This document shows, piece after piece, positions 5,033 through 22,614 of a DNA stretch of 64,000 nt. Each line of letters begins with the position of its first letter. Positions within the stretch are counted from its first letter, which is position 1. The stretch comes from Hymenobacter sp. H14-R3 (GTDB taxonomy: Bacteria > Bacteroidota > Bacteroidia > Cytophagales > Hymenobacteraceae), in assembly GCF_030063445.1 (NCBI RefSeq), contig NZ_JASITD010000011.1:1-64000 (forward strand), in the 5' to 3' direction. Below the pieces are notes generated by a model, which saw nothing but the letters and a program-made list of their open reading frames with translations, was not told the origin of the DNA and made no database searches. Both the position numbers and the translations under genes were made by a program.

Positions 5033-5908
5033 TTAGTAGCACTGCAAGAACTGGCGCACCTGGCTGAAATCGCGGCGGGCCAGGTCGGCCCGCTTTATCC
5101 AGAAGTAGAGGCGGCCCATGTCGCCCCACATCATGCCGGCTTCGGCTTCGTGGCTGTCGAGCTGCAAGAGCAGCTCCCACTCGCCAGCGGCTTGCTGCGC
5201 AAGCGCAGTCGCTTGGTCGCGGCTAAGATTTTGATTTTCAATACTAATGCCGCTCTGGCTAGCCAGCACGCACTGCGCGCGCATGGGGCCCTGGAGGTTG
5301 TCCGAATTGCCGAGCAGGCGGCTGGTGCCGTCGCCGTGCTGGGTGAGCAGCAGGAAGCCGTAGGCGGCGCGCTGGTCTTCGGTAAAGGCTTCTTCTGGTA
5401 GGGGCAGGTCCTCGTCCCAGGGGTTGGGCAGGGTGAGCTCGGGGGCGAAGGCCAGGGCGGCGGCGGGGAAGGCGGAGTAGGCTTCGGCCGTTAAATCGGT
5501 GGGTAAGGGCCTGGTTACCAGTGCCTCCGCGGCGGGGTAGTACTGCACCACGGCCCGGCCGCGGTCGGCGGGGTCATGGCCCCAGGGCTGTTCCAGCGCA
5601 TCGTAGAAAAAGGCCAGCCGGCCGGTGGGAGGTAGCAGCCCGCGGGCATCGTGCGGGGCCACTTCGGCCAGGTTAAGTTGGGCGATGAAGCTGAGGCTGC
5701 GGCCCTGCCAGGTGGGCCAGGCGGCGGCGGCGGGCAGGTCGGGCGCGCCGCCCAGGCGCGAAGTGCCCAGGGCCAGCGGGGCCGCTGCCGGAGCCGCCGC
5801 CTGCGGCAGCACCCGAATGCTGGGCCGGCACAGCGGGGCCAGCAGCGGCCAGAACTCGCCCAGGTCTTTGCCAGTAACGAGGGCTTGTAAATCAGCTAGT
5901 TGCTGCAT
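5033..5908 (-). CDS. DUF1963 (YwqG-like) protein
   Basis: 291 residues. The body matches the DUF1963/YwqG pattern: SRLGGAPDLP, then W-P-x-W-Q-G-R-S-LSFIAQLNL, GRLAFFYDA, and near the end MMWGDMGRLYFWI. These are the conserved blocks of this two-sheet family, whose function is unknown. DUF1963 proteins often occur in polymorphic or accessory loci and may bind other proteins. The start codon is 2 bp from the stop of the DUF4132 gene, so it is the last gene of the large minus-strand operon. No signal peptide or membrane segment. Confidence 0.8.
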   Translation of the reverse strand: MQQLADLQALVTGKDLGEFWPLLAPLCRPSIRVLPQAAAPAAAPLALGTSRLGGAPDLPAAAAWPTWQGRSLSFIAQLNLAEVAPHDARGLLPPTGRLAFFYDALEQPWGHDPADRGRAVVQYYPAAEALVTRPLPTDLTAEAYSAFPAAALAFAPELTLPNPWDEDLPLPEEAFTEDQRAAYGFLLLTQHGDGTSRLLGNSDNLQGPMRAQCVLASQSGISIENQNLSRDQATALAQQAAGEWELLLQLDSHEAEAGMMWGDMGRLYFWIKRADLARRDFSQVRQFLQCY

Positions 5909-5910
5909 GG

Positions 5911-8463
5911 TTACTTGGTTTTGAGCTGGCGAATAATTGTCTCGTCCGTAATCTTATCATCGTCCATCAGTAGCAAGGCTTTGCTGAGGATGATGGAGAG
6001 CACGGCGTCGCCCTCGAAGGGCAGAAATACGCCGGCCGCGCTCGGGGCTTTGGCCGCGCGGTCGGGCACAATGCAGAGGTACTGGTCGTTGGGCTCCATC
6101 AGAATGTTGCCGCTGCCGAGGTGGATTTTGTAGGTGCGCAGCTTGCCCTGCACCACCAAAAACTTGTCGGTGAGGGTGCTGACTTTGCCGATTTTGAGGC
6201 GGGGCACCAGGCGCGCCAGGGCCAGGCGGCGGTTTTTGGCCACCTCGCTGAGCTCGCCGAAGCTGTAGCTTTCCCAGTAGGTGCGAAACTGGGTGAGGCC
6301 GCCGTTGTCGCGCCACTGCGGGTCGTTGCCCACGCTGGCCACGCCCACGAACAGGTCCACGTCGCGCATCACTTCGGAGAGGACCAGCGGCGGGATTTCG
6401 GGCAGCGGCACGGCCTCGCCGGCGCGGCTGAAGCGCACCTGGTCGGTGCTCACGTAGAGCCAGATGCCGGTGTCGTTGAAGGCCTCGTCGGCGTCTACTT
6501 CGCTCACCCAAAACTCGGCTTGCAGGCCGTGGGCGGGCAGCGGCAGGGTGGCCGTTTCGGTTTCGTAGCCCTTGTCGTAGGCGCCCAGCAGGCTGTATTT
6601 CCAGCCGCGTATCTTGGCTAACGAGCTGAATTGGTGCTGCTTGAGCAGGTGGGCCGCCATGCGGTTGGAGTAGGTGCGGGTGCGCTCCTCGGGCGGCGTG
6701 AGCAGGTACACTTCTCTAAATGCTTGTTTGATAGGCTGTTGTAGCTGCTGGGCTTCGAGCAGGCCCCGCCAGGCCAGCACCTCGGCGGCGGGGGCCAGCA
6801 CGGGGTGCCACAGCTCCACCAGGTCATCGTCGGTGGGCGGGGCCACGGGCTGATGCTTAGCATCGCGCCAGCCGTTGGCCAGCCAAATGGCGTCGGTGTG
6901 GGTGCCGTCGGGGTGGTGAAAGCGCCAGATGAGCGGGCGCGTGAGCAGGCCCAGCAGGCCGTGTTCGGCGTAGTGCTGCCGAAACCACGGGGCCGCCATG
7001 CGGCGGCCGGCCACAAAGCTGCGGTCGAGGCGCTCGCGCTGGGCGGTGTAAGTTTGCTGAAGCTGCAAAGCATTGTTCTTTAGCTTTTTAAGCTCGGCGG
7101 CGTGGGTGGCTTTGAGGGCGGCGGGCGCGGCTTTGAGGGGCTTGCCGGCCTTGGCCCAGTGCACCTCGGCCTTGCCGTGTTCGAGCAGCAGCGTGGCGGT
7201 GTAGTCGGCGAAGGTTTCAACCAGTTGGCCGTCTTCCAGGCCAAAATCGGGCACGGCCATGTCCTCAATCTCATCGGGGCTCACGCCCAGCTCGGCCGAA
7301 ACCTGGAGGATATACTTGGCAATGAGCGCCTGGGTATTGGTTTGCTTGATGCGGGGGCGCACCCGCGCCAGGGCCGCCACGCCGGGCAGGCCGCTTTGCG
7401 AAAGCGTGAGCAGGCAGGCGTTGCCCAGGGCCATGGCCGCCGGCCCCTGGCCCGGAATCTTGCGGTAGCACTTGGCGGCCAGGGCACTCAGCTGCTGCAA
7501 GATGCCGGCATCGGCCAGCGGCTGCACGGCCCACGCCAACCCTTTGGCTACGATGGCATTAGGCTCTAATAAATAGGTGTAGGACGAGTAAGTGCGGGTG
7601 CGGCCATCACCGTAGTCCACGGTTTGGGTTTCCTCCACAATGGGCGTGGTGGCCAGTAATTCGAGCCAGGCGAGGGCCTGCGGGCGCACGGCATCGGGGC
7701 CCACGGCGGCGGTGGCGGCGGCCAGCTCCTTGCGAAACTTAGCGGTGGGCTGGCCGCCGCTGGTTTTTTGCCACAGGTGCAGCAGGCGCAGCCAGGGCAG
7801 GGTGGTGGGCGCGTCGTCGGGCAGGCCGTCGGCAAACTGCGCCAGTTCCCGTCCGAAGGCATCGCCCGCGGGGAAGCTGACGACGGGCCGCCCTTCGGCG
7901 TTGCCCAGGCTCAGGATGCCCTGGAGGCGGCGCTGCATCTTGGTTACTTCGTCGGCCCGCCAGCCCGTTAGCTCCAGGTGCGTCGCGGCCAGAAATTTGG
8001 CTAGATACGCGGCCAGCGGCTCCGTGAGGCCGTTTTTCTTCGCCGATTTTTCTAATTGCCCCAGCGTCAGGCCCACCGGAAAAATGCCCAGCGCCTCGCG
8101 GATGGCTTCGGCATTGGGTGTGTCGAAGCGCAGGCCGTAGCCGTGAAAAAGCTGGATGAACTCGGGGTTGCTGAGCGCCAGGGTGGTGCGCATCAGCCCT
8201 TCCAGCAGCCGCAGCAGGGTGGTGCGCAGCCGGCCCCCGTTGGCCCGCAGCGCCACCAGGGCGGCCAGCGCCAGGCGGCCCCGGTAGGCGGCATCCTGCG
8301 CCTTGGCGGCCTGGTAAACGGGCAGCTCGGTGATGGTGCTGTGCCAGTTGGCCGTGCTACCGGCCTCTTTAATAAGCTGTTGCAGCACCGGCTGCATTTC
8401 CCGCGACGCGGGGCTGGCATCGGCGGGAAGGTCGGCCAGGGTGAATTTTTCGGAAGTAGGCAT
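5911..8463 (-). CDS. DUF4132-domain protein (MolR/YehI-like)
   Basis: 850 residues. The N-terminal 400 residues are helical repeat-like. The C-terminal half carries the DUF4132 core: RMAAPWFRQHYAEHGLL, RPLIWRFHH, DDDLVELWHPVLA, QPIKQAFREVYLLTPPE. A final domain includes YKIHLGSGNILMEPNDQYLCI and ends in an ...ALLLMDDDKITDETI helix. E. coli YehI/MolR shares this architecture and lies in a locus with a MoxR ATPase, a VWA protein and a SWIM protein; its biochemical function is not established. Here it is separated from the upstream small beta-grasp-like gene by 182 bp containing a long inverted repeat, and is nearly fused to the DUF1963 gene (2 bp). Cytoplasmic by sequence. Confidence 0.8.
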   Translation of the reverse strand: MPTSEKFTLADLPADASPASREMQPVLQQLIKEAGSTANWHSTITELPVYQAAKAQDAAYRGRLALAALVALRANGGRLRTTLLRLLEGLMRTTLALSNPEFIQLFHGYGLRFDTPNAEAIREALGIFPVGLTLGQLEKSAKKNGLTEPLAAYLAKFLAATHLELTGWRADEVTKMQRRLQGILSLGNAEGRPVVSFPAGDAFGRELAQFADGLPDDAPTTLPWLRLLHLWQKTSGGQPTAKFRKELAAATAAVGPDAVRPQALAWLELLATTPIVEETQTVDYGDGRTRTYSSYTYLLEPNAIVAKGLAWAVQPLADAGILQQLSALAAKCYRKIPGQGPAAMALGNACLLTLSQSGLPGVAALARVRPRIKQTNTQALIAKYILQVSAELGVSPDEIEDMAVPDFGLEDGQLVETFADYTATLLLEHGKAEVHWAKAGKPLKAAPAALKATHAAELKKLKNNALQLQQTYTAQRERLDRSFVAGRRMAAPWFRQHYAEHGLLGLLTRPLIWRFHHPDGTHTDAIWLANGWRDAKHQPVAPPTDDDLVELWHPVLAPAAEVLAWRGLLEAQQLQQPIKQAFREVYLLTPPEERTRTYSNRMAAHLLKQHQFSSLAKIRGWKYSLLGAYDKGYETETATLPLPAHGLQAEFWVSEVDADEAFNDTGIWLYVSTDQVRFSRAGEAVPLPEIPPLVLSEVMRDVDLFVGVASVGNDPQWRDNGGLTQFRTYWESYSFGELSEVAKNRRLALARLVPRLKIGKVSTLTDKFLVVQGKLRTYKIHLGSGNILMEPNDQYLCIVPDRAAKAPSAAGVFLPFEGDAVLSIILSKALLLMDDDKITDETIIRQLKTK

Positions 8464-8645: not shown

Positions 8646-9044
8646 TCAGACGCCCACCAGCGGCGTGAGCTTGATGAAGCTGGCCGTGGCCCCGGCCCCA
8701 AGCCAGATTTCCTCGTCGAGGGTTTCGGCCTGGCGGTCGTTCACGAGCAGAAAAAAGCCGTTGTTCTGAAACGCTTCGAGGGCGTGGTACACCTGCTGCT
8801 CGGCGTCGATGGCCTTGGCGGGGCGCAGGCGGTAGGTGTCGCCGTTGAGCAGGCGCTCGGAGTCGGTGGGCTGGATGAGGCCCTGGAAAACGCCAGTCTG
8901 GTGGCCGTTGTAGGCGGCTACCTCGTCGTGCACGCGGCGGGCAATCAACTCGCGCACGGTGAGCATTTCCTGGGCTATTTCGAGCTCCAGGCGGGTGAGG
9001 ACGCTGCCGGTGGCGGTTTCATCCTGAATGGTGAGGAGGGCCAT
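8646..9044 (-). CDS. Small beta-grasp (MoaD/ubiquitin-like) candidate protein
   Basis: 132 residues, no signal peptide. It begins with a likely beta hairpin (MALLTIQDETATG, then LTRLELEI), followed by a TVRELIARRVHDEVAAY helix, as in beta-grasp proteins where 'T-V-x-E-L' opens helix 1. The last 35 residues run FFLLVNDRQAETLDEE, then IWLGAGATASFIKLTPLVGV. This closely parallels the MoaD/ThiS C-terminus: an 'NxR-x-x-x-LD' strand, a 'L-x-x-G-x-x-V' turn and a 'P-x-x-G-G' end. Here the end is GV rather than GG, so adenylation or thiolation of a terminal glycine is doubtful. It sits between DUF6493-like gene D (37 bp) and the DUF4132 gene. Fold assignment is my inference; as a real conserved gene it is secure. 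Confidence 0.75.
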   Translation of the reverse strand: MALLTIQDETATGSVLTRLELEIAQEMLTVRELIARRVHDEVAAYNGHQTGVFQGLIQPTDSERLLNGDTYRLRPAKAIDAEQQVYHALEAFQNNGFFLLVNDRQAETLDEEIWLGAGATASFIKLTPLVGV

Positions 9045-9081: not shown

Positions 9082-12000
9082 TTAGCAGGGCCTCACGCCA
9101 GCAGCAGGGCGGCGGCTTTTTTTGAGGGAAGCCGTAGCCTGCCACTCGCGCAGGCGGGCTTGCACGGGGGGCGGCGTGGGCTGCCGGGTGCGGCTTTGGA
9201 GGTCGGCGTAGGTGTCGAGCAGCTTGCGGGTGTTGCGCAGGGGCTCGGCGGGCAGGGCAGGCAGCAGCGCGTCGAGGGTTTGGTGCAGGGCCGCGTCGGT
9301 AAGGGCGTCGATGGCGCGCAGCTCGGCCAGGCCGTCGGCGAGGCGCTGCATGGGCACGAAGCCGCCGCCCAGCAGGCGGCCCAGCGCCGCGCCCAGGGCG
9401 GCGGGTAGCAGGCGGCGCTCGGCCACGGCGGCCAGCAGCGCTTCCAGCGCCAGCGCCCGGCAGGCGGGGGCGTTGTAAGTCAGGCCGATAGCCAATAGTA
9501 ATGTGGTGGGCTCATCAAAGAGCGGGCCAGGGCCCAGCAGGCTGCGCAGGGCCTGCAAAAGCACCTCGCGGTTGGTCGAGTCTACGGTGTCGCGGGTGGC
9601 AGCCAGGCCCAGTACGTGCCAGTAGAGCGGGGCCGGGTACTGCGGCAGCAGCGCCACCAGAAAGGGAAAATCAGTAGCCAGGGCCTGGAGGCAACGCCAC
9701 TGATGAGGTGCTCCGATATTTACAAGATTATTGTGTAAAGAATAGATTAACAGCTTACTAGGGGCTGGTGAGCGCGTGGTTTTATCCAGAATGAGCAGCT
9801 CCAGCCAGTGCTCGGTTACTTCGGGCTCGCCGGGCCGCCACCGCTCCACGTAGGTGTTCGACTTGGGGAGTAGCTCCCACACGGGCTGCCAGGGTTGCGC
9901 CACGTTGGGGCACGGGTTGTCCGTGAGGCTGGCCAGCGCCGGGAAGTGGCCCGCCGGCTGGCGGGTGCGAGCGGCCACGGCCCAGAGCCAGGGCAACGCC
10001 TCGGCCAGCGGCGTGGCCCCGGCTTCGGCGGGGGCGGGCAGGGCGGGCAGCGGCTCCTCGGTGGGGGCCAGTAGCCAGGCCAGCAGCGCCCGCAAGCCGA
10101 TATGCTGCAACTGCGGCAGCAGCTGCCGGGCGGCCTCGGCGCTGGCCGGGGCCTGCCAGGCGGTGCGGGCCAGCGCCACGGCCAGGTCGGCGGGGTTGGG
10201 CGCCTGCTGCGCGGTTTGGTAAGCCAAGAGATTCTCTAACAGCTTACTAGGCGCGACCCAGCAGGGCGCGTGGGTGGGCGTGCTGAGCAGCGGCAACTCG
10301 GGCCCGGCCACCAATAAGGCCTCGGCAAAGGCCAGCCGCTGCTGGGCCACGGCCACCAGCGGGTCGGGCACAAAGTAGGTATCGGCGATGGTGGTGCGCG
10401 CCACAAAGGGCTCGGCAAAGCCATTGGCCCAGCTCAGTAGCAGTAGCTGGGGCAGCAGGGCGTGGCCCCCCGCCCGGCCGCCCGCCGCATCTTGCATAAC
10501 GGCCGCCGCCCGCTCGGCCGCCGGGCCCGACAGGTAGGGGTGCACCTGCCCCACGTAGGGCTGCAACAAGTCGGCATAACCGGCCGGAAACTGGCCGCGC
10601 AGGCGCAGCAGGCCATCGAGCCAGCGCTCCAGGGCCAGCGCGTCGTCGTGCTTGAGCACCTGCCCGGTGAGGAAGAGCAGCTCGTGCCAGTCGGCCACCG
10701 GCACGATGGCCGTGGCGGCCGACAGGTCGGGCACAAGCTCAGTAAGTGACTCATAGTGAGCCGGCTCAGCTTCGGTATCCGGCAGGGCCGCCGCGCCGAC
10801 CGCCGCCAGCCAGGGGGCCAGCACCGCGCGGGTGGCCGGGGCCAGCAAGTCGGCGTAGGCCAGTATGGTGGCGGTGGTTTCGGCGATTTCGGCGGGCGCG
10901 AGCAGCGGCTTTTTGGCGCTCAGCAGCTCGGCCAGGCCCTTGGCGGCGCGCTCCTGCACGGCGCTATCGGCGTGGGCCAGGGCAGCGGCGTGGAGCCGCG
11001 CCAGCGGCAGCGCCTGGGCCGGCTGGGTCTTCAGGAGCTTGCCAAAGCCCACCAGCAGGGTTTTGAGGCCGGTTTTGAGGTCTTGCCGGGTCATCAGGCC
11101 ATCGGCGGCGCGCAGCAGCGCATCCAGCTCAAAAGCGGGCATCAGCCACAGGTCCTTGAGCTGGTCGAGGGCGAAATTGACGACCAGCGGCAGTGGGTGG
11201 GCCAGCAGCTCGGTAAGCTCGGTTTGGCGGGCCAGGCACTCGGCCGGAGTAGGGTTGAGGCTGCTAAACAGGTTCTTAAACCAGGTGAGCAGGGGCCGGC
11301 GGAAGTCGCGGCGCAGCGCCAGCAGGCAGCGGGTGAGCAGGTCTTCGCGCCCAAGGTGGCCCGAGGTCACCAGCTCGGGCAGCAGCGTGAGCCACGAAAC
11401 GGTGGTGCGCGCCTTGCCCGAATATGTGGAGGCCGAATCGGCCATCGTGTCGAAGTCGAACAGCAGCAATACGTCGCGCTCCAGCAGCGTGGTATTAGTG
11501 CGCAAATCACGGAGGATAAGTTGGTCATACTCCTCAATGTCGCCTCCTTCTACGTCGTTGCGCTGCCCGTTGTACTCCGACGGCAGGTGGGCCACCGACT
11601 GCGCAAACAGCCACGGCTCGTGGGCCAGCAGCGCGCGCGTTTCTAGGGTGCGCAGCACTTGGTAGGGCGGGGCGGCCCACAGGTTGGCCCGGGTGCGGCG
11701 CGTCAGCCACTCGGCCAGCCAGTCGGGACGAGTGTACTCCAATACTTTCAGTGCCAGCGAGTTGTCGGCGGTTGGGCTGTTGGGGCTGTCCCAGTCGAGC
11801 GACCACCGAATATCGAAGCCCCGCCCCAGCGCCTCCTTGCGCGAATAGGTAGCCAGGCCGGCCAGAAACAGCATTTTGCCTTGCTCAGGTGTCATCAGGC
11901 AAGTCCATTGCAGCTGGCCGGGCTTCACCTCGCGCTCCTGGTATTCTTCCAGCTCCTTCTTGAGGCGCAGCGTTTTTTGCCGCACGGGCACCACGTCTTT

Positions 12001-12087
12001 TTTGTCCAGACTCAGCAAAAAGGGTAGAAGCTGCTGCGCGGTCTGGTGGCGGATAAGGTGCTCGAACGTGTCGGTGGGAGTCGTCAT
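9082..12087 (-). CDS. DUF6493-like alpha-solenoid protein, paralogue D
   Basis: About 1,001 residues from the ATG at 12087; a TTG two codons upstream is also in frame. The N-terminal block FEHLIRHQTAQQLLPFLLSL and the LDKKD segment are shared by all four tandem paralogues. Around 255-320 is the best conserved region (LLALRRDFRRPLLTWFKNLF, then LPLVVNFALDQLKDL). HEAT-like repeats follow (SAVQERAAKGLAELL), then VPVADWHELLFLTGQVLK. No catalytic motif, signal peptide or membrane segment is visible. The C-terminus departs from paralogue C: a run of seven T at 9117-9123 (six in C at 12163-12168) shifts the frame, so the ending AAALLLA becomes SRRPAAGVRPC. In the ancestral frame the stop would be at 9093-9095. 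Family name from memory; role unknown. Confidence 0.8.
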   Translation of the reverse strand: MTTPTDTFEHLIRHQTAQQLLPFLLSLDKKDVVPVRQKTLRLKKELEEYQEREVKPGQLQWTCLMTPEQGKMLFLAGLATYSRKEALGRGFDIRWSLDWDSPNSPTADNSLALKVLEYTRPDWLAEWLTRRTRANLWAAPPYQVLRTLETRALLAHEPWLFAQSVAHLPSEYNGQRNDVEGGDIEEYDQLILRDLRTNTTLLERDVLLLFDFDTMADSASTYSGKARTTVSWLTLLPELVTSGHLGREDLLTRCLLALRRDFRRPLLTWFKNLFSSLNPTPAECLARQTELTELLAHPLPLVVNFALDQLKDLWLMPAFELDALLRAADGLMTRQDLKTGLKTLLVGFGKLLKTQPAQALPLARLHAAALAHADSAVQERAAKGLAELLSAKKPLLAPAEIAETTATILAYADLLAPATRAVLAPWLAAVGAAALPDTEAEPAHYESLTELVPDLSAATAIVPVADWHELLFLTGQVLKHDDALALERWLDGLLRLRGQFPAGYADLLQPYVGQVHPYLSGPAAERAAAVMQDAAGGRAGGHALLPQLLLLSWANGFAEPFVARTTIADTYFVPDPLVAVAQQRLAFAEALLVAGPELPLLSTPTHAPCWVAPSKLLENLLAYQTAQQAPNPADLAVALARTAWQAPASAEAARQLLPQLQHIGLRALLAWLLAPTEEPLPALPAPAEAGATPLAEALPWLWAVAARTRQPAGHFPALASLTDNPCPNVAQPWQPVWELLPKSNTYVERWRPGEPEVTEHWLELLILDKTTRSPAPSKLLIYSLHNNLVNIGAPHQWRCLQALATDFPFLVALLPQYPAPLYWHVLGLAATRDTVDSTNREVLLQALRSLLGPGPLFDEPTTLLLAIGLTYNAPACRALALEALLAAVAERRLLPAALGAALGRLLGGGFVPMQRLADGLAELRAIDALTDAALHQTLDALLPALPAEPLRNTRKLLDTYADLQSRTRQPTPPPVQARLREWQATASLKKSRRPAAGVRPC

Positions 12088-12138
12088 AAACAAAATACTC
12101 TTCAGCTGTAAAAACTACTTACTCAAGCGATTACTACC

Positions 12139-15100
12139 TCACGCCAGCAGCAGGGCGGCGGCTTTTTTGAGCGATGCCGTGGCCTGCCACTCGCGCAGGC
12201 GGGCCTGCACGGGGGCGGGCACGGGCTGGTGGGTGCGGCCTAGCAGGTCGGCGTAGGCGTCGAGCAGCTTGCGGGTGTTGCGCGGGGGCTCGGCGGGGAG
12301 CTCGGGCAGCAGGGCGGCCAGGGTTTGGGTGAGCACGTCGTCGGTGGCCGGGTCGATGGCGCGCAGCTGGGCCAGGCCGTCGGCGAGGCGCTGCACGGGT
12401 ACAAAGCTGGCGGCCAGCAGCTTGCCCAGCGTCGCGCCCAATACTTCGGGCACCAGGCGGCGCTGGGCCACGGCGGCCAGCAGCACTTCGCGGGCCAGCG
12501 CCCGGCAGGTGGGCGCGGCGTGCGTGAGGCCCACGGCCAGCAGCACGGTGGTGCTTTCGGGGAAGCGCGGGCCGGCCCCCAGCAGCGTCGCCAGCACCTG
12601 CTCTACCACAGTGCGGCCCTCCGAGCCGGTGCTGTCGGTGCGGCAGGCGGTGCGCAGCAGGTGCCAGTGCAGCGGGGCGGGGTTGCCAGGCACCAGGGCG
12701 AGCAGAAAAGGCAGGCCGGAGCCCAGCGACTGCAGGTAATATTGCTCTTTCTGCGGCAGGCGGGCGTGCAGCGAGTAGAGCGCCAGGGGCGACGGGGGCC
12801 GCTGGCCGGGGTGCTCGGTGGCCACGGTTAGCTCAGTCCAGGTTTCGGTGATGGCGGGTTGCTCTTTGTCCCAAGGGTACGTATAGGTACGCGACTTTGC
12901 TTCGACATGCCAGGCGGGCTGCCAGGGTGCGGCCACGCCGGGGTAGTCGGCCAGGGCGCGCAGCGCGGGCAGCTCGGCGGTGGGGTAGCGGGTGCGGGCG
13001 GCCACGGCCCACAGCCAGGGCAGAACTTCGGTAAAAGACACCGACAACTCGCTGTACCTAAGTGGGATAAGCTTGCTGAGGCGCTCGCTGAAAGCCTTGA
13101 CAATCGACTTGTTTTCGGGGGCGAAGCTGGGCAGGGCTTCGGCCAGGGCCGTGGGCGATAAAAACCAGTCGAGCAGCGCCCGCAACTCGGCGTGCGCCAG
13201 CTGGGGCAGCAGCAGCCGGGCGGCGGCGGCATCGGTTTCGGCGGCAAAGGCGGTGCGGGCCAGGGCCACCACCAGGTCGGCCGAATCGGGTGCCTGGCCG
13301 GCGGCTTCGTGGGCCAACAGCCTCGTTACCAGCACAGTGGGGGCTATCCAATTCGGGGCGTGGCTGGGCGTGCTCAGCAGCGGCAGGGGGGCGGGGGCGG
13401 CGGGGTGCAGGCGGGCCTCCGCCCCGGCCAGGCGCTGGCGCTCCAGGGGCAGCAGCGGGTCGGGGTGGTGGTACTGCTGGTCGGCCAGGTTGATTTTGGC
13501 GAGCCGGGGATACTCAAAATCAGCGAACCAGCTGGCCAGTAGGGCCCGGATAAAATTGCGGTACCCCACGTGGCTGCCGCCAAACCCGAGGTTGCGCAGG
13601 GTGAGGGCCTGCTCCGCCTCGGTCTGGTCCTCCAGTTCCCACGAGAAAACCTGCTGAATGTAGGGCCGCAGCTGCTGGGCGTAGCCCGCCGGAAACTGCT
13701 CCCGCAGGCGCAGCAGCCCATCGAGCCAGCGCTCAAAATCGGCCGGCTCAGCATCCTGCAACACCGGCCCGGTGAGAAACAGCAGCTCGTGCCAGTCGGC
13801 CACCGGCACGATGGCGGTGGCGGCCGAAAGGTCGGGCATAAAATCCATGATTATCTCATAATTATCATTTTTACTGGTAGTTATGTTTGCATCGGTAGTT
13901 TTCAGCCACGGCCCCAGCACGGCGCGGGCGGCCGGGGCCAGCAAGTCGGCGTAGGTAGCGATGGCGGCCGTTGCTTCGGCCGTTTCAGTGGCCGTGAGCA
14001 GGTTTTTTTTGGGAGTCAGTAGCTCGGCCAGGCCCTTGGCGGCGCGCTCCTGCACGGTGGCATCGGCCTGGGCGAGGGCGGCGGCGTAGAGCGGGGCCAG
14101 CGTGGGGGCAAGGCCGGGGCTGACTTTCAGCAACTTGCCAAAGCCCGCCAGCAGCGTTTTGAGGCCCGTTTTGAGGTCCTGGCGCGTGAGTAGGCCGTCG
14201 GCGTAGCGCAGCAGCAGCGCGGGCGCAAAGGCCGGGTCGGCCCAGAGGTCCTTGAGCTGGTCGAGGGCGAAATTAACGACCAGCGGCAGCGGGTGGGCCA
14301 GCAGCTCGGTGAGCTCGCTCTGGCGGGCCAGGCGCTCGGCCGGGGTAGGTTCGAGGCTGCTAAACAGGTTCTTAAACCAGGTGAGCAGGGGCCGCCGGAA
14401 GTCGCGGCGCAGCGCCAGCAGGCTGCGCGTGAGCAGGTCGGCCCGCTCCACGTGGCCCGAGGCCACCAGCTGCGGCAGCAGCGTGAGCCAGGTGATGGAC
14501 CCCAGCTTTTCGCCCAGGTAAACGGCCGCCGAGTCGGCCGGCGTGTCGTAGTCGAATAGCAGCGGCAGGTCGCGCGCCAGCAGGGTGGCATCGGCTTGCA
14601 GCTGGCTTAGCAGGAAGGCCGCCAGGCCCTTGCCCCGCTCCTTGTTGGTGTGGTTGTAATGATTGGGGCGGTTGGCCAGGCTTTGGGCAAACAGCCAGGG
14701 GTCGTAGCCGACCAGCCCCTCGGCCTCCAGCTCGCGCAGCAGGGTGTAGCGCTGGTTTTGCCCGGCGCGCGACTGGCGCACCAGCAAGTCGGTGAACCAG
14801 GTGGGCCGGCTGTGGCGCATTATGGTCATAAAGTGCTCTTTATAACCCCGGTTATCCTTGCCATTGTCGAGGTCAATGTTCCAAGGCAGGTCGAAGCTGC
14901 GGCCCATTGCCTCCTGCTTGGAGTAGGTGGCCAGCCCGGCCAAAAAGAGCTGGGTTTCCCGGTGGCGCAGCTTCTTCGCCTCCGGGCTGTCGTTGCGCCA
15001 GTCGTTTATTTCCTTGTAGAGCGCCTTGTTTTGGAGGCGCACCGCCACCAGGTCTTTCTTATCGAGGTGCAGCAAAAAGTCGATGAGCGCCGGCATGGGC

Positions 15101-15251: not shown

Positions 15252-18227
15252 CTAAGCCGCGTGCTGGGCCAGCAGCGTCCGGCTGATTTTGCGCAGACTC
15301 GCCGTGGCTTGCCACGCGCCGAGCTGGGCCTGCACCGGCGCGGGCACGGGCTGCTGGGTGCGGGCCAGCAGGTCGGCGTAGGTTTCGAGCAGCAGGCGCA
15401 GCTTGGGGAGCGGGGTGGCGGGCAGCTCGGCCAGCAGGGTGGCAAAAAGCTGGCTCAGCACGGCATCGGCGGCGGGGCTGCTGGCGCGGGTCTGGGCCAG
15501 GTTTTTGGCCAGGTGGCCGGCATCCGCAAAGTCGCCGGCCAGCATTTTGCCCAGCACCCGGCCCAGCGCGGCGGGCACCAGGCGGCGGTGCTTGGTGGCC
15601 GCCAGCAGCACTTCCACGGCCAGCGCATTCTGGTAGCCCAGGGTGCGGGCCAGCAGCAGCGTGGCCGCCTCCTCGAAGCATGGCCCCGGCCCCAATAAGC
15701 TGGTAAGCGTGGCCGCCGACAGGGTATCCGTATTGCTTATGCGCAGCGTGTGCCAGTGCAGCGGGGCGGGGTACTGGGGCAGCAGCGCTCCCAAAAAGGG
15801 GTAATCATCGGCCAGCGCTCCTGCATAATTATCGAGGTTTACGAAGGGCTCAGCTGCTTCCAGCGGTACGGTGGCGGCCAGCGAATATAGGAGCGTGGGG
15901 GGCACGGGGGCCGGCGTGAGGGGCAGCGCCAGCAGCACCGCCGTCCAGTGCTGGGTTATGTCGGGCTGGTCGGGTCCCCACGGCTGCTTGTACGTGCGCG
16001 ACTGCACGCCCACCCACCAGCTGGGCTGCCAGGGATGGACTACGCCCGGCACCCCAGCCGCCGCCACGCCCGCCAGGCCCGGAAACTCGCCGGCCGGCTG
16101 CTTGGTGCGGGCGGCCACGGCCCACAGCTGCGGCAGCGCCGCGGCCAGGGCCGCCGCGCCGGCCCCTGGCGCGGGCGCGGCGGTAGGGTCAGCTAGGTCA
16201 GCTACGCCCGCCGGCAAGGGCTCGGCCACGGGGCCCAATAGCCAGGCCAGCAGGGCGCGCAGCCCGGCGTGGCGCAAGCGGGGCAGCTGAGCCAGGGCCG
16301 CGGCGGCCTCGGTGGGGTGGGCGTGGGCGGTGCGGGCCAGGGCCACGGCCAGGTCAACGGGGTGCGGCGACTGCCCAGTAGCTTCGTAGGTTAATAACCT
16401 GGTTATCAAGGCATTGGGCGATACCCAGTGCGGGGCGTGGCTGGGCGTGCTCAGCAGCGGCAGGGCGCGCTGCTCGCGCAGCAGGGTTTCGGCAAAGGCC
16501 AGGCGCTGCTGCTCGGCGGCCACCAGCGGGTCGGCTATTATCGTAAAGAGGTCTTTATAGGGATAACCCAGGCTGGAGTCGTAGCGCAGGTGGATGCCGG
16601 GCACCAGCGGGGCCGCAAAGCCCCGCGCCCAGCTCAGCAGCAGCGCCTGCACCAGGCCCGCGTGCCCCACGGCCAGCGCGGGCTCGCGGAGCAGCTCCTC
16701 GGTTTCCGCCTCGGTTTTGCCTTTGAGCTTGGGCCACAGCTGCTGCAAGTAGGGCCGCAGGGCCGGGGCGTAGTGCGGCGGCAGCCGGCTGCGCAGGCGC
16801 AGCAGGCCATCGAGCCAGCGCTCCAGGGCCAGCGCGTCGTCGTGCTTGAGCACCTGCCCGGTGAGGAAAAGCAGCTCGGGCCAGTCGGCCACTGGCACCA
16901 CGGCCGTGGTGGCCGACAAGTCGGGCACGAAGTCCAGCAGCGGGGCGTAGTCGGCCGCCGTTGCCGCGCCGGCCGCCGGCGGTGCCGCCAGCCAGGGGGC
17001 CAGCAGGGCCCGCGCCGTGGCCCCCAGCTGCCCGGCTGCGTCGCCGAGGGCGGCGATAACCGCTTGTCTATCAGGGCTTGATAAAGAAGATTTTGTGGCA
17101 GCCAGCAGCGCGGCCAGGCCCTTGGCGGCGCGGTCTTGCACGGCGGCGGCGGGGTGGGCGAGGGCGGCCGCGTAGAGCCGCGCCACGGTGGGGGCCTGCG
17201 CGGGCGCGCTGCGCAGCACCCGGCCCAGGCTGGTGAGCAGCGCGACCAGGCTGGCGGCCACGTCGGGGCGCGCCAGCAGGCTTTCGGCGGGCAGCAGCAG
17301 GGCCGCCAGCCGAAAGCCGGGGTCCAGGCACAGGTCCTTGAGCTGGCCGAGGGCAAAGTTGACGACCAGTGGCAGGCTGTGCTCCACCAGCGCCAGCAGC
17401 TCGGCCTGGTGGGCCAGCTGCTCGGCTCGGGTGGGTTGGAGGCTGAGGTACAGGTTCTTAAACCACGTGAGCAGGGCGCGGTGAAAATCGCGGCGCAGCG
17501 CCAGCAGGCAGCGCGTGAGGATGTCGGCCCGGTGGAGGTGGCCGCTGGCGATGAGCTCGGGAATCAGCGTCAGCCAGGTGATGGACTCGCGGTAGGTGGG
17601 GCCCATCATCTCGGCTTCCTCGGCGCGGGTGTCGTAGTCGAAGAGCAGGGGCAGGTCGCGCGTCAGCAGCAGCGCATCGGCCCGAAACTGCGCCAGCAGG
17701 TAGTCCGTCAGGTTAGGGCGGTCGTTTTCGGCGGCGTTGCGGTAGTCGAGCCGGCGGGCCAGCGCCTGGGCAAACAGCCAGGGGTCGTAGGTTATCAGCC
17801 CTTCATCGGCCAGCGTCCGCAGCTGGGTATACGGCAGTACCTGCCCGGTAAAAGTGCGGGCCAGGCCCAGCAGCCAGTCGGTGAGCCAGGGGGGGCGGGC
17901 GTGGCGCAGCACGGTCAGCAGCGGCTCGCAGGGCCCCTGGTAGCGCTTCTGGCCGAAGGCAGCTTCCAGAAAATCGCCGTTCCAGTAGCTGCTGAAGCTG
18001 CGCTGCAACGCTTCCTGCCGCGCGTAGCTAGCCAGCCCCGCCATAAACAGCAGCGCCCAGGTTTCAGGCACGTTACCGGTGTCAAATTTCTTAGCTAACT
18101 GTTTGGTTTTCTTGCGAATGGCCACGATATCCTTGGGGTCTAAGCCCAGCAAAAAAGTGGCCATCTCGGGCAGCGGGGCCGGCAGGCGCACCAGCTGCTC
18201 AAAGATTTCGACAACGGAATCAGCCAT
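15252..18227 (-). CDS. DUF6493-like alpha-solenoid protein, paralogue B
   Basis: 991 residues, more diverged. It starts MADSVVEIFEQLVRL with LDPKDIVAIRKK. The conserved block is LLALRRDFHRALLTWFKNLY with LPLVVNFALGQLKDL. AAVQDRAAKGLAALL is HEAT-like, and VPVADWPELLFLTGQVLK follows. Over that last region it shares a tract of 78 identical nucleotides with paralogue D (16791-16868 versus 10597-10674), although elsewhere D resembles C more. The C-terminal part ends RKISRTLLAQHAA. There are 101 bp to paralogue C and 67 bp from paralogue A. No enzymatic motif seen. Confidence 0.8.
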   Translation of the reverse strand: MADSVVEIFEQLVRLPAPLPEMATFLLGLDPKDIVAIRKKTKQLAKKFDTGNVPETWALLFMAGLASYARQEALQRSFSSYWNGDFLEAAFGQKRYQGPCEPLLTVLRHARPPWLTDWLLGLARTFTGQVLPYTQLRTLADEGLITYDPWLFAQALARRLDYRNAAENDRPNLTDYLLAQFRADALLLTRDLPLLFDYDTRAEEAEMMGPTYRESITWLTLIPELIASGHLHRADILTRCLLALRRDFHRALLTWFKNLYLSLQPTRAEQLAHQAELLALVEHSLPLVVNFALGQLKDLCLDPGFRLAALLLPAESLLARPDVAASLVALLTSLGRVLRSAPAQAPTVARLYAAALAHPAAAVQDRAAKGLAALLAATKSSLSSPDRQAVIAALGDAAGQLGATARALLAPWLAAPPAAGAATAADYAPLLDFVPDLSATTAVVPVADWPELLFLTGQVLKHDDALALERWLDGLLRLRSRLPPHYAPALRPYLQQLWPKLKGKTEAETEELLREPALAVGHAGLVQALLLSWARGFAAPLVPGIHLRYDSSLGYPYKDLFTIIADPLVAAEQQRLAFAETLLREQRALPLLSTPSHAPHWVSPNALITRLLTYEATGQSPHPVDLAVALARTAHAHPTEAAAALAQLPRLRHAGLRALLAWLLGPVAEPLPAGVADLADPTAAPAPGAGAAALAAALPQLWAVAARTKQPAGEFPGLAGVAAAGVPGVVHPWQPSWWVGVQSRTYKQPWGPDQPDITQHWTAVLLALPLTPAPVPPTLLYSLAATVPLEAAEPFVNLDNYAGALADDYPFLGALLPQYPAPLHWHTLRISNTDTLSAATLTSLLGPGPCFEEAATLLLARTLGYQNALAVEVLLAATKHRRLVPAALGRVLGKMLAGDFADAGHLAKNLAQTRASSPAADAVLSQLFATLLAELPATPLPKLRLLLETYADLLARTQQPVPAPVQAQLGAWQATASLRKISRTLLAQHAA

Positions 18228-18294: not shown

Positions 18295-21225
18295 TCAATC
18301 GGCCAGCGCTAGCAGCGCCTTGGCCCCCGCCTTGAGGCTGGCCACTTGCTGCCAGGCCAGTAGGTTGGGCTGGGCGGCGGGCGGCACGGGGCGGCGGGTG
18401 CGGGCCAGCAGGTCAGCGTAGGCGTCGAGCAGGGGGCGCAGGTTGCGGGGCGGGGCGGCGGGTAGCTCGGGCAGCAGGGCGTCGAGGGTTTGGCGCAGGG
18501 CGTCGTCGGTCAGTGCATCGAGGGCGCGGCCCGCGGCCAGCTGCTCGGTGAGGCGCAGGATGGGCGCCAGACCAGCGGCTAGTATGCGGCCCAGGGCATA
18601 GCCCAGCATGGCGGGCGCCAGGCGGCGCTGGGCCACGGCCGTCAGCAGTACTTCCAGCGCCAGGGCCCGGCAAATGGGCGCGTAGTGCGTGAGGCCCACG
18701 GCCAGCAGGGTGCTGGTGGCCTCGCTAAAGCGGGCGCTGGCGGGCAGCAGCGCGCGCAAGGCTTGCTGCATAACGTCGCGCCCCTCGCTGCCCACATCGC
18801 CCGTGTGGCAGATGGTGCCGATGAGGTGCCAGTGCAGCGAAGTGGGGCACTGGGGCAGCAGCGTCAGCAAAAACGGTAGGTTGGGCTTTAGCATCCATAG
18901 GTAATACCGGCGGTCGTCGAGCAAGCCCGCGTGCAGTGAGTAAAGCAGCAGCGGCGAGGGGGGCGGACCGGCCGCAGCAGGCCCCAGGCGCAGCCCATCG
19001 TCGGCCTGTGTGCTGAGCGGGCACCACGGGGCCGTCACGCCGGGGTAGTCGGCCAGGGGCGCCAGCTCGGGGAGGTTGGCCTCGGGGTAGCGGGTGCGGG
19101 CGGCCACGGCCCACAGCCACGGCAGGGCATCGGCGAGCGGCAAGCCGGGGCTGGCAGTGGCGGCAAGCTGGCCGAGGGGCACCGGGTGGCGGCTCGCGGC
19201 GGCGGCTTCGGCAGGAGCCAGAAACCAGGTGAGGAGCGCCCGCAAACCGGGGTGCTGCAAGGCGGCCAGGGCCGTGCGCGCCAGGGCGGCATCTGGGGTG
19301 GCCTGCCAGGCCGTGCGGGCCAGGGCCAGGACCAGGTCGGCTGGGCAGGGCGGCACGCCGTGGTGCTGGTAAGCTAACAGCTTCTCTACCAATGCCGTGG
19401 GCGCCAGCCAGTGCGGGGCATGGCTGGGGGTGCTGAGCAAGGGCAGCGGCGCACTGGCGCGGCCAAGCTGGGTTTCTACCCACCCGAGCCGCTGCTGCTC
19501 CAGCAGCAGCAGGGGGTCGGGCAGCTGGTAGCGCTGCAACAAGGAGACATTGGCCAGCGTGGGCTGCTGAAACCCGGTGAACCAACCGGCGAGCAAGGCT
19601 TGCAGCATTTCGGCCCGGCCATTTTCGCCCCGCCCATACGCGTAGCCCAGCACGGTGGCGGGCACTTCGGCCGCCGGTTTATCTTTCAACACCCAGCCAA
19701 ATACTTGCTGCACATAGGGGAGGAGCTGGGCCGCGTAGCCGGCCGGCAGCTGCCCGCGCAGGCGCAGCAGGCCGTCGAGCCAGCGCTCGGTGGCGGCGGG
19801 GTCGTCGTCTTGCTTCAGCACCTGCCCGGTGAGGAAGAGCAGCTCGTGCCAGCCGGCCACCGGCGCGATGGCCGTGGCGGCCGAAATATCGGGGACGAAC
19901 TGCGCGTTAGCCTGGTAAGTAACAGTGGCAGTGATACTTACCCCAGAATTTGCCGCCAGCCACGGCGCCAGCGCCGGGCGCGCCGCCGCGCCCAGCAACT
20001 CGGCTTGCTGGCCGATGGTGGCAGTGAGGGCGGCGATTTCGGCGGCGGCAAGCAGGGGCTTTTGGGCGCTCAGCAGCGCGGCCAGGCCCTTGGCGGCGCG
20101 CTCCTGCACGGCGGCATCGGGGTGGGCGAGGGCGGTGGCCAGCAGCCGGGCCACGGCTGGGGCGTGGGCGGGGTGTTGCGGGGGCAGCTTGACCAGGCCG
20201 GCCAGCAGGGTGCGCAGGCCGGTTTTAAGGTCGGGCCTAACCAGCAGGCTATCAGCCACAAGCAGCAAGGGAGCCAGGCTAAAGCCTGGCTCCGGCAGCA
20301 GGTCTTTGAGCTGGCCGAGGGCGAAGTTGACGACGGTGGCCTGGGTTTGCGCCAGCAGCTCCGTGAGTTCGGCTTGCCGGGCCAGGCGCTCGGCCAGGGT
20401 GGGCTTGAGGGCCAGAAAAAGCTCCTTAAACCAAATCAGGAAGGGGCGGCGGAAATCGCGGCGCAGCGCCAGCAGGCAGCGCGTGAGCAGGTCGGCCCGC
20501 TCCAGGTGGCCCGACTCGACAAGGGCGGGCAGCAGCGTGAGCCAGGTAAACGTTTCCCCGTTTTTGCCTCCGTAGAAATAAGCTGCCTGCGCCGGCGTTT
20601 CGTAGTCAAAAAACAGCAGCAGGTCGCGGCGCAGGCGCGGAAAATCGGCCCGCAGGCTTTGCAAAAAGTAGTGCGCGCAGCTTTCCCGGTCCTCCGCTTC
20701 GTCAGTATCCTGCGCGTTGTAAGTGGTGAGCAAATGCGCCGCCGCCTGCGCAAACAGCCACGGCTCATGGGGTATCAGGCCCCGGTCGAGCAGCTCGTGC
20801 AGCAGCCAGTACGGGGCCGAACGCTGCTCCCAGTCTGCCTGGCGCGCCAGGCCCACCAGCCAATCCGTGAGCCAGGGCGGCCGGGCGTGCGCCAGCACGG
20901 TCAGGAAGGCTGACTGCCCTGCCGCTGCCGCCGGGGGCCACTTATCGGCCCATTGGCTTTCAAAGCCCCGGCCCAGCGCCTCCTTGCGCGAGTAGGTAGC
21001 CAGGCCCGCCACGTACAGCATCTCGCTCTGGGCCAGGGTGATGGGCACTATCCAACTGGTTTGGTCAGGGGCCTGGTAGGCTTCCGTTAGCTCCGCTTTG
21101 AGCCGTAGTAGCTTTTGCCGCACGGGTACGATATCGGCCGGGGCCAGTTGCAGCAGAAAAGGTCCCAGTTCGGCTAGGCTTTGGTGACGAATGAGGTGCT
21201 CGAAAGTTTCGCTAGCGGTAGTCAT
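18295..21225 (-). CDS. DUF6493-like alpha-solenoid protein, paralogue A
   Basis: 976 residues, the first solenoid gene of the operon. The start MTTASETFEHLIRHQSLAEL with LAPADIVPVRQK matches paralogue D best. The core block is LLALRRDFRRPFLIWFKELF with VVNFALGQLKDLL. AAVQERAAKGLAALL is HEAT-like, and APVAGWHELLFLTGQVLK follows. The C-terminal third is shorter than in the others, which accounts for the smaller size, and it ends KAGAKALLALAD. It begins 48 bp after the SWIM gene stop. It is cytoplasmic by sequence. As with the others, scaffold or adaptor function is only an inference from the helical-repeat character. Confidence 0.8.
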   Translation of the reverse strand: MTTASETFEHLIRHQSLAELGPFLLQLAPADIVPVRQKLLRLKAELTEAYQAPDQTSWIVPITLAQSEMLYVAGLATYSRKEALGRGFESQWADKWPPAAAAGQSAFLTVLAHARPPWLTDWLVGLARQADWEQRSAPYWLLHELLDRGLIPHEPWLFAQAAAHLLTTYNAQDTDEAEDRESCAHYFLQSLRADFPRLRRDLLLFFDYETPAQAAYFYGGKNGETFTWLTLLPALVESGHLERADLLTRCLLALRRDFRRPFLIWFKELFLALKPTLAERLARQAELTELLAQTQATVVNFALGQLKDLLPEPGFSLAPLLLVADSLLVRPDLKTGLRTLLAGLVKLPPQHPAHAPAVARLLATALAHPDAAVQERAAKGLAALLSAQKPLLAAAEIAALTATIGQQAELLGAAARPALAPWLAANSGVSITATVTYQANAQFVPDISAATAIAPVAGWHELLFLTGQVLKQDDDPAATERWLDGLLRLRGQLPAGYAAQLLPYVQQVFGWVLKDKPAAEVPATVLGYAYGRGENGRAEMLQALLAGWFTGFQQPTLANVSLLQRYQLPDPLLLLEQQRLGWVETQLGRASAPLPLLSTPSHAPHWLAPTALVEKLLAYQHHGVPPCPADLVLALARTAWQATPDAALARTALAALQHPGLRALLTWFLAPAEAAAASRHPVPLGQLAATASPGLPLADALPWLWAVAARTRYPEANLPELAPLADYPGVTAPWCPLSTQADDGLRLGPAAAGPPPSPLLLYSLHAGLLDDRRYYLWMLKPNLPFLLTLLPQCPTSLHWHLIGTICHTGDVGSEGRDVMQQALRALLPASARFSEATSTLLAVGLTHYAPICRALALEVLLTAVAQRRLAPAMLGYALGRILAAGLAPILRLTEQLAAGRALDALTDDALRQTLDALLPELPAAPPRNLRPLLDAYADLLARTRRPVPPAAQPNLLAWQQVASLKAGAKALLALAD

Positions 21226-21273
21226 GTGCTTAATGATGAGCTAATTATTTCAACACAGAGAGTTCCAGACCCG

Positions 21274-22614
21274 CTACCCAAACCGCAGCTGCGCGGCCAG
21301 AATATGCTTGCAGGGCCCGCGCTGGCCCTGGTTGCTCGTAAACCACTGGCAGGTGCAGCGCGCGGGCTCGGGGCCGCCCACCAGCACGGTGTGCCACACG
21401 TCGGTGCCGCGCACGCGGGCCTCGGTGCGGCCGCCGGCCCCCACGCCCACCAGCTGCACATCGTCGGCCGAGTCGAGCAGGGCGCGGGCGTTTTTGAGGC
21501 GCGGGTTGAGCTTGAGAATGCGGTCGGTTTTGAAGGGCAGGCGGCGGTAGAAGTAGTGGTTTTCGGCCAGGTCGAAGCCCAGCAGGCCCATCGCCGAAAG
21601 GCTGGCGCACAGCCGGTCCACGGTGCCGGGGGCCAGGTCGTGCGCCATCGCAAAAAGCGTGGGGTTAAAGGTTTCGTTGCCCCGAAACAGGTTGTTGGCC
21701 CCCGCCAGCCACTCGGCGGGCAGGTCCTCCAGCAGCGTGTCGAGCTGGTTGCCCTCGCCCGAAAAGCCCCGGTTCACGGCCGCCGACAGCGTGAGCACGA
21801 ATTCGTGGCCGCCGCCCAGGGCCAGCACAAAGGCGCTGGCCTGGCCGTCGGGCGTGGCAAACACGCGCAGGCTTTCGCAGAGGGGCAGCAGGCCGTCGAG
21901 CAGCCGCAGCCGGTGCACGCCGCCCACCCGCACCGCGCCCGCGCTGGCCACCGGCGCAAAGCTGGGCCGCGGCCCACGCAGCACCAGAAAAAAGTCGCCC
22001 TTGGCCGTGCCCGCCGGCATGCTTTGCACCAGCTGCGTGGCCTGCACGCGGGTGAGGGTCATTTTTTCCTCCATCAGGGCCAGGTAGCCCTGCACGGCGG
22101 TGAGGCCCTTTATCCAGCGCTCGGGCAGCGTCACCTTGCGCTCGGTCACCTGGCCGGCGGCGCGCTCCAGGGTCACTTCCGTTTGGCCCACGGTGAGGCG
22201 CACGGGCTCGGCGCGGGCCACCCGGCTGAGGGCGTTTACCATGGGCTCGTTGAAATCGACGTTGGTGGTGCCGCTGCTCAAAAACTCGCCCTCCAGCGCG
22301 GCCGGGCCCAGGTCGAGGCGGGCGTACACGCCGTTGCACGACGAAAACGCCTCGAAGCGCAGCAGCCCCGCGCCGGCCGTCACGATGGGGTCGCGCAGGG
22401 CGGCGCTCTGCGGCACGAAGCGCGAGGCCACCACTTTGGCTAACGTGGTTAGCCCGCGGGCAGCCAGCCACGAATCGCGCAGCCGGCCCTGAAAAAAACA
22501 AGCCGCGCCGCTGGCGGGTGCGTTCTCGGCGTAGGCGGCAAGTTGCAATGCAGCGCCTTCCGGGGCGTGCGTGAGGGCCGAGGGCTGAGCGTAGGCGTAG
22601 GTGAGGTCGGACAT
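21274..22614 (-). CDS. SWIM zinc-finger protein (YehQ-like)
   Basis: 446 residues. The last 27 residues hold a canonical SWIM zinc site CxC-x12-CxH: C420-T-C422, then C435-K-H437, in the context ARCTCQWF...GPCKHILAAQL. SWIM domains bind DNA or proteins through one zinc ion. The N-terminal 400 residues have no recognised domain but include a conserved-looking SSCNGVYARLDLG segment and strands around residues 90-160. E. coli YehQ and many actinobacterial proteins pair a SWIM finger with DUF4132 or solenoid neighbours. It is the first gene of the minus-strand operon; a TAnnTTTG box lies at 22688-22695, 74 nt upstream of the ATG. Confidence 0.85.
   Translation of the reverse strand: MSDLTYAYAQPSALTHAPEGAALQLAAYAENAPASGAACFFQGRLRDSWLAARGLTTLAKVVASRFVPQSAALRDPIVTAGAGLLRFEAFSSCNGVYARLDLGPAALEGEFLSSGTTNVDFNEPMVNALSRVARAEPVRLTVGQTEVTLERAAGQVTERKVTLPERWIKGLTAVQGYLALMEEKMTLTRVQATQLVQSMPAGTAKGDFFLVLRGPRPSFAPVASAGAVRVGGVHRLRLLDGLLPLCESLRVFATPDGQASAFVLALGGGHEFVLTLSAAVNRGFSGEGNQLDTLLEDLPAEWLAGANNLFRGNETFNPTLFAMAHDLAPGTVDRLCASLSAMGLLGFDLAENHYFYRRLPFKTDRILKLNPRLKNARALLDSADDVQLVGVGAGGRTEARVRGTDVWHTVLVGGPEPARCTCQWFTSNQGQRGPCKHILAAQLRFG

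Follow-up and report, generated by a model that had tools for sequence, protein, structure and literature searches.

We analysed a window of 64,000 nucleotides from Hymenobacter sp. H14-R3 (contig NZ_JASITD010000011.1, positions 1 to 64,000 of the forward strand) and, within it, a block of eight minus-strand open reading frames (ORFs) at 5033–22614. In transcriptional order these are a SWIM gene, four DUF6493 genes, the gene of a 132-amino-acid (aa) protein (p132), a DUF4132 gene and a DUF1963 gene. The block consists of two modules, A (SWIM and DUF6493) and B (p132 and DUF4132), and is not one eight-gene unit. The SWIM protein of module A, P0008, is homologous to the type XIII retron SWIM protein and is predicted to contain a sliding-clamp fold. 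The features are as follows.

21274..22614, minus strand: SWIM protein P0008, 446 aa, core of module A (Pfam SWIM, 1.4e-6; PADLOC SWIM_XIII, 6.4e-60; AlphaFold2 model)
21772..22500, minus strand: predicted clamp region, P0008 residues 39–281 (Foldseek, VIA-align, conservation of basic residues)
21544..21723, minus strand: winged-helix-like region, P0008 residues ~298–357 (AlphaFold2: helices, then two strands)
21292..21393, minus strand: SWIM zinc finger, P0008 residues 408–441 (Pfam)
18295..21225, minus strand: DUF6493 copy a, P0007, 976 aa, without WGR, presumed helical solenoid (Pfam)
15252..18227, minus strand: DUF6493 copy b, P0006, 991 aa, without WGR (Pfam)
12139..15150, minus strand: DUF6493 copy c, P0005, 1003 aa, without WGR (Pfam)
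9082..12093, minus strand: DUF6493 copy d, P0004, 1003 aa counted from TTG, without WGR (Pfam)
8646..9044, minus strand: p132, 132 aa, predicted ubiquitin-like beta-grasp protein, first gene of module B (AlphaFold2, Foldseek, VIA-align, alignment)
5911..8463, minus strand: DUF4132 and DUF7737 protein, 850 aa, partner of p132 in module B (Pfam)
5033..5908, minus strand: DUF1963 protein of 291 aa, optional last gene of module B (Pfam)

All eight genes of the initial annotation are present, and the gaps between them (48, 67, 101, 45, 37, 182 and 2 bp from the SWIM gene onward) span exactly the 2 to 182 bp it had given. Its domain names agree with Pfam, which places SWIM, DUF6493 with DUF7824 and DUF7825 (in each of the four copies), DUF4132 with DUF7737, and DUF1963 above their cut-offs and gives no domain for p132. 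The likelier start of copy d is an ATG two codons after the TTG. The highest hydropathy over 19 residues is below 1.6 in all eight proteins, suggesting no membrane helix, as had also been proposed. The single promoter candidate put forward for the block fared less well: the sigma-70-like match at 22690 scores 9/12, and a better one (10/12) lies inside the block at 15200. Sigma-70-like matches numbered four, against 1.4 expected in shuffles, and the sole match in the window to a Bacteroidota-type promoter pattern is at 53443, with none close to the operon.

Module A is a near-strict gene pair. Among 59 related genomes, our own included and 37 of them of the same genus, DUF6493 was found in 13, all same-genus (13/37), and exactly these 13 carry the SWIM gene in its close form. 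Scanning named genomes with the SWIM alignment yielded at least 556 confirmed relatives; at the 80 best-matching loci, from Bacteroidota, SWIM and DUF6493 occur together at 79, while the remaining locus (L146) ends inside the SWIM gene and so cannot be judged. In the ORF calls the two genes share a strand at 78 of the 80 loci, and L126 also holds both. Other ORFs lie between them at L157. No further gene recurs beside the pair in more than 4 of 12 genus-level groups. A phylum sample of 395 genomes, which overlaps with the named loci (e.g., G391 and L193, the same contig, or G025 and L128), contained DUF6493 in 11. The pair also reaches other phyla: seven records of a plasmid collection hold a SWIM relative, and six of these have a DUF6493-type ORF just downstream. 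The pairs come from Asticcacaulis, Diaphorobacter (two copies), three Streptomyces and Nonomuraea, whose record of 11.9 Mb must be a chromosome; in one of them (L254) the SWIM protein is visible only as a 106-residue piece. Neighbouring genes in this collection include a site-specific integrase with VapBC, a Fic toxin and a HEPN gene. In two f24 genomes (L123:12556-17139 and L122:13409-18029), several unannotated genes, mostly of 120–190 aa, precede the pair on the same strand.

The SWIM protein connects module A with retrons. P0008 matches the PADLOC model SWIM_XIII at 6.4e-60; from the PADLOC names and gene neighbourhoods, we take SWIM_XIII, WGR_XIII and RT_XIII to be models of type XIII retrons, which combine an RT with a WGR-HEAT/ARM protein and a SWIM protein. 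Alignment of the window-type SWIM proteins with the retron SWIM_XIII group by hhalign gave a probability of 99.8% and an E value of 1.9e-27 over 436 columns, and 33 columns, GTTN included, are invariant over 22 sequences. Five genomes from the same order have distant SWIM homologues that adjoin a long partner and RT_XIII, the latter at more than 510 bits in all five; PADLOC, applied to three of these five loci, returned RT_XIII (512–616 bits), SWIM_XIII and WGR_XIII/HEAT-ARM_XIII. The SWIM profile matches 14 genomes of the phylum sample, with a long form accompanied by RT_XIII and WGR_XIII at five of five loci and a short form accompanied by DUF6493 in 10 genomes, our own among them. The partner proteins are linked as well. 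A WGR hidden Markov model (HMM) built from DUF6493 N-termini matches three of four retron partner proteins (2.9e-12, 1.1e-10 and 5.4e-8), and of two relatives submitted to PADLOC, WGR-bearing or WGR-less, one matches WGR_XIII (5.7e-5). Both kinds of system meet in Flavobacterium sp. ov086 (L168), where RT_XIII, WGR_XIII, SWIM, DUF6493 and SWIM genes are consecutive, and in genome G341, where a full type XIII retron, a SWIM-DUF6493 pair and p132-DUF4132 lie inside ~37 kb.

Besides its zinc-finger motif (CxC-x12-CxH, residues 420–437), P0008 yields an AlphaFold2 model from a 30-sequence alignment with a predicted local distance difference test (pLDDT) of 83 and a predicted template modelling score (pTM) of 0.83. 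In a Foldseek search of this model against the PDB, 50 of the 50 matches listed are sliding clamps (PCNA, DnaN; best E 1.1e-9). VIA-align superposes residues 39–279 on 2izo_B with a Z score of 16.8 and a root mean square deviation of 3.1 Å over 217 aligned residues, the full length of archaeal PCNA, at just 8–10% identity between the clamp matches and P0008. Residues 39–281 are thus predicted to form a PCNA-like sliding clamp. In PCNA, four helices line the DNA channel. The four helices of P0008 that match them, assigned by element order and PCNA superposition, have a mean net charge of +4.8 over the 30 SWIM sequences against –0.4 for the remaining clamp region, and R53, K60, R166, K169, R235 and R237 are basic in 90–100% of these sequences; from the model we infer that the inner helices probably face DNA. 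At the place homologous to the winged-helix-like region, one retron homologue gives winged-helix Pfam matches (DprA_WH, 0.003; HTH_24, 0.05), both below cut-offs. Because the type XIII retron SWIM protein is homologous to P0008 over its full length, it should likewise have the clamp fold.

The DUF6493 proteins are presumed, from composition and analogy, to be helical solenoids. The Pfam WGR domain is present in 7 of 24 DUF6493 proteins examined, and the WGR HMM finds it in 54 of 82 solenoid ORFs longer than 800 aa at the named loci, 25 of these 54 having served to train it. By this HMM, presence follows gene order, genus by genus: WGR occurs in 54 of 55 solenoids if the solenoid gene lies ahead of SWIM and in none of 27 if SWIM comes first, as here. 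The DUF6493 copy number ranges from one to four, and Flavobacterium collinsii (L182) carries four or more copies in tandem, the first crossing the locus edge. The four copies of the window do not form one clade. Their mutual identity is 48.7–55.3%. In the tree, an orphan DUF6493 from a different strain is placed with copy d, and the second copy of L130 with copy c (support 0.69–0.99 on these nodes). Since three of them are more similar to a copy from a different strain than to each other and identities are this low, we reject a recent tandem duplication as their origin. The DUF6493 gene at L040:9769-12765 (G003 contig C7, 156 kb), which has no SWIM partner, groups with copy d. Between the DUF6493 body and DUF4132, hhalign found no homology.

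The two proteins of the pair evolve at different rates. By the Nei-Gojobori method, the median omega (ratio of nonsynonymous to synonymous divergence) is 0.031 for SWIM and 0.109 for DUF6493, the latter exceeding the former in all 20 of the independent pairs compared within genera (thinned from 147 pairs with a synonymous divergence, dS, of 0.02–0.9 for SWIM and below 1.5 for DUF6493). Mean distances within Hymenobacter are 0.20 for SWIM and 0.50 for DUF6493. Distance matrices of the two proteins correlate in three genera (r = 0.62, 0.93 and 0.85; 0 of 999 permutations as high), a correlation that shared descent alone also produces. A conserved SWIM protein next to a faster-evolving, duplicating DUF6493 is a pattern in which the latter might be a specificity subunit.

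We give an even chance to the reading that module A is a relative, without reverse transcriptase (RT), of the two proteins that accompany the RT in type XIII retrons, and probably an anti-invader system acting via a DNA clamp. The kinship draws on computed results, namely the SWIM homology, the shared WGR, the pairing and the lack of an RT_XIII match; the clamp enters as a fold prediction, and the function is our own deduction. Defence is favoured because of the patchy and plasmid-borne distribution, the retron linkage and the toxin and integrase neighbours. This is in line with the initial annotation, whose proposal of giant scaffold-like proteins and a finger that binds nucleic acid, as parts of a possible conflict system, is supported here; the type XIII retron kinship of the SWIM gene, the PCNA-like clamp and the two-module structure had escaped it. 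The combination of a constant clamp with variable, multiplying solenoids suggests proteins for sensing or specificity that work through a single effector acting on DNA. The faster-evolving, duplicating solenoids would sense DNA structures or proteins of an invader (phage or plasmid) and would then release the conserved SWIM clamp or load it onto DNA. Once on invader DNA, the clamp would stall replication or mark the DNA, with no cutting. Pfam finds no nuclease among the operon proteins, and for this reason loading or holding a clamp is the simplest action; alternatively, the clamp could sequester replication proteins of the invader. In type XIII retrons, RT-DNA might add a further layer of control.

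Several results weigh against this reading. No RT_XIII was found in the genome of Hymenobacter sp. H14-R3 (E ≤ 0.001), in window ORFs of at least 80 aa or in any of the 13 same-genus genomes with DUF6493, and no Rfam RNA matches in 4–25 kb, where a type XIII msr-msd RNA may fall outside Rfam; module A is therefore not a retron. None of the four window copies of DUF6493 has a WGR domain by Pfam or any PADLOC match, and hhalign of the DUF6493 body against the retron HEAT/ARM body reached a probability of 11%, at the WGR edge only. As to the clamp, which is a fold prediction only, the sequence profile of the SWIM protein finds no clamps in the PDB, the one retron SWIM among the 30 sequences has a four-helix charge of only +1, and Pfam reveals no clamp-loader-like ATPase among the operon proteins. 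DUF6493 is under purifying selection (omega 0.11) and not under positive selection. The pair also looks imperfect in places: SWIM is split in L196 and interrupted by an in-frame stop in G341, DUF6493 is fragmented in L147, L156 and L174, DUF6493 occurs without SWIM in L040 and, as a divergent form, in L124 (G254), and a plasmid-borne SWIM (H6) lacks a DUF6493 gene beside it. Finally, the viral contigs and phage records searched contained no SWIM relatives.

The PCNA-like predicted fold, the basic inner helices and the WGR domain of many relatives would also suit a module for DNA damage or replication stress, in which the clamp, together with WGR and the zinc finger, would mark nicks or ends in the manner of a 9-1-1 checkpoint clamp and the solenoid would serve as a repair scaffold. 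For module B alone there is a further pointer in this direction, as depletion of DdrO, a damage-response repressor, strongly raises a Deinococcus operon encoding a DUF4132 protein (PMC8533742). The patchy presence (13/37 in the genus) and the plasmid copies near integrase and toxin genes do not favour repair, and the type XIII retron linkage together with the faster-changing, duplicating solenoids fits conflict better. We therefore regard a DNA-damage role for the system as rather unlikely.

A second alternative, assembly assisted by a MoxR-vWA system, would make the operon proteins clients or scaffolds of a chaperone encoded elsewhere in the genome. The initial annotation had pointed to the E. 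coli yehI-yehQ locus with its MoxR and VWA partners and had noted that neither is present here. Indeed, no such family occurs among the eight operon proteins and 10 scanned flanking proteins of the window (459–34275). Of the proposed parallel, the common DUF4132 domain stands; YehQ is no detectable relative of the SWIM protein and was rejected as its homologue (hhalign 0.8%; hmmsearch E 0.069 with a negative score; no PADLOC match). In some Flavobacterium and Pedobacter relatives such partners do stand beside the pair: MoxR-vWA-beta-propeller genes (Pfam bpX0-4, bpMoxR) adjoin it at six named loci (L160, L168, L189, L193, L194 and L178), and partial sets lie at the locus edges of L158 and L184. 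The total is six to eight of 80 loci, with a near-full set at only six. Of the 395 genomes in the phylum sample, 10 have bpMoxR above 300 bits: five belong to the 10 genomes that hold the pair (our own included) and five to the 385 others. The match lies within 20 kb of the pair in three (G391, G341 and G266). These counts are uncorrected and come from mutually related genomes, with G391 and L193 being one contig, and they omit weaker bpMoxR matches, which are present in 384 of 395 genomes. With no such gene in the operon, we consider this explanation improbable. Our own genome has a bpMoxR match of 323 bits at C44:169982-170593, ~98 kb from a DUF4132 array on the same contig.

Module B combines DUF4132 with a small protein for which the initial annotation had suggested a beta-grasp-like fold, and modelling agrees with moderate confidence that p132 is a ubiquitin-like beta-grasp protein. 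The AlphaFold2 model is a beta-grasp with a pLDDT of 74.6 and a poorly predicted tail. Its best Foldseek matches are ubiquitin variants, the ubiquitin-like domain (UBL) of HOIL-1L, MoaD and ISG15 (best E 8.7e-3, none ≤ 0.001), and VIA-align gives Z scores of 8.0 against 5mpo_A and 6.6–7.3 against ubiquitins and UBLs. Of 15 aligned p132 sequences, 11 end in Gly-Gly and three (Flavobacterium) in AGSYW, and the window copy ends in Gly-Val. Among the 59 relatives p132 occurs in 12 and DUF4132 in 14, the 12 all within the 14 (G051 and G056 have DUF4132 without p132). DUF4132 was found in 11 genomes of the phylum sample, in 10 above the cut-off, and p132 adjoins it at 9 of 10 loci examined there, in nine other genomes, lying one gene away in G254. 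DUF1963 also directly follows DUF4132 in L128 (same contig as L030) and L145.

The initial annotation proposed to score the co-occurrence of the SWIM, DUF6493-like, p132 and DUF4132 genes across Bacteroidota; co-occurrence is strong, as two separable modules. Nine same-genus genomes contain both, as a single block in six (G000, G003, G021, G025, G026 and G033) and at separate loci in three (G016, G018 and G023). Module A stands alone in four further genomes (G002, G006, G017 and G034) and module B in two (G009 and G024). The Flavobacterium loci L184 and L188 have the modules side by side, and L175 has them two genes apart. A single eight-gene machine, in which p132 is conjugated to the clamp or docks on it as in eukaryotic PCNA ubiquitination, draws on the ubiquitin-like fold, the Gly-Gly end of most p132 homologues and the joined or close modules at these loci, and is highly improbable in view of the modules lying apart in three of nine genomes and single in six more, the Gly-Val end of the window p132 and AGSYW of the Flavobacterium type, and the absence by Pfam of any E1, E2 or JAB-type domain among the operon proteins. 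Module B is an independent accessory module, often beside module A, perhaps with a role in tagging or regulation.

Further DUF4132 genes occur in our own genome. At C44 268395-276828, where neither SWIM nor DUF6493 gave a match, three DUF4132 genes lie in tandem behind a second p132, which ends in Gly-Gly. A lone DUF4132 without p132 lies on C90 (L008:10832-15596) beside the gene of a 715-aa UvrD-like helicase. The Flavobacterium DUF4132 proteins of L175, L184 and L188 have ~1690 aa; that of L184 has the architecture DUF5724-DUF4132-DUF7737, with a 144-aa p132-like gene upstream. In the window, the second gene past the operon start (24792–27344, plus strand) encodes an 850-aa UvrA-like protein (Pfam ABC_tran and UvrA DNA-binding).

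A bolder version of the favoured reading is quite doubtful as a whole. It sees a mobile two-gene immune system of several phyla, sister to type XIII retrons, with a PCNA-like clamp as a roadblock or decoy effector that diversifying, interchangeable solenoid sensors would load onto invader DNA; the retron SWIM protein would also be a clamp, and p132-DUF4132 would modify or regulate the clamp. If true, genes of several phyla that are annotated as "SWIM zinc finger" or "DUF6493" would belong to one unrecognised system, and the SWIM partner of type XIII retrons would become a DNA clamp, giving this retron type an effector mechanism. A bacterial immune effector that encircles DNA and does not cut it would act in a new way, the comparison would show a protein pair existing with or without the retron reverse transcriptase, and p132-DUF4132 acting on the clamp would form a bacterial parallel to PCNA ubiquitination. 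In the literature searched, we found no paper on DUF6493 and no account of how the SWIM partner of type XIII retrons acts. Among the matches listed for retrons in combination with SWIM, WGR, clamps or type XIII, judged by titles and abstract starts, none was relevant, and the main text of a 2025 retron paper (PMC12548924) mentions neither XIII nor SWIM or WGR.

The system can be set beside several known ones. With the E. coli yehI-yehL-yehM-yehP-yehQ locus it has in common the DUF4132 domain of YehI and the SWIM motif of YehQ. It differs in that the MoxR, DUF5682 and VWA genes of that locus were not seen among the operon and 10 scanned flanking proteins, and in that no DUF6493 is annotated in the yeh region. 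The bpX ternary systems (Kaur et al. 2020, PMC7159879) have their genes next to the pair at certain loci of Flavobacterium and Pedobacter and contribute no component to this operon; the words SWIM and WGR are absent from the main text of that paper. Ubiquitin, MoaD, Urm1 and ISG15 resemble p132 in its predicted fold and in the C-terminal Gly-Gly of most p132 homologues, whereas p132 has a long insertion, a DUF4132 neighbour and no conjugation enzymes in its operon, and the window copy lacks the final Gly. P0008 departs from PCNA and DnaN in having a winged-helix-like region and a SWIM finger after the clamp and no sequence-level similarity to them; the likeness lies in the predicted clamp fold, which extends over the whole of PCNA, and in the basic residues of the helices corresponding to its inner ones. 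Compared with type XIII retrons, the window system has no RT_XIII and no recognised msr-msd RNA, its partner is a DUF6493-DUF7824-DUF7825 protein without WGR, encoded by one to four genes, and its SWIM protein is without the long insertion that the retron SWIM protein has after the first clamp helix. What the two share is a SWIM protein homologous over its whole length, encoded side by side with a giant partner that, in many DUF6493 relatives, starts with the same WGR domain.

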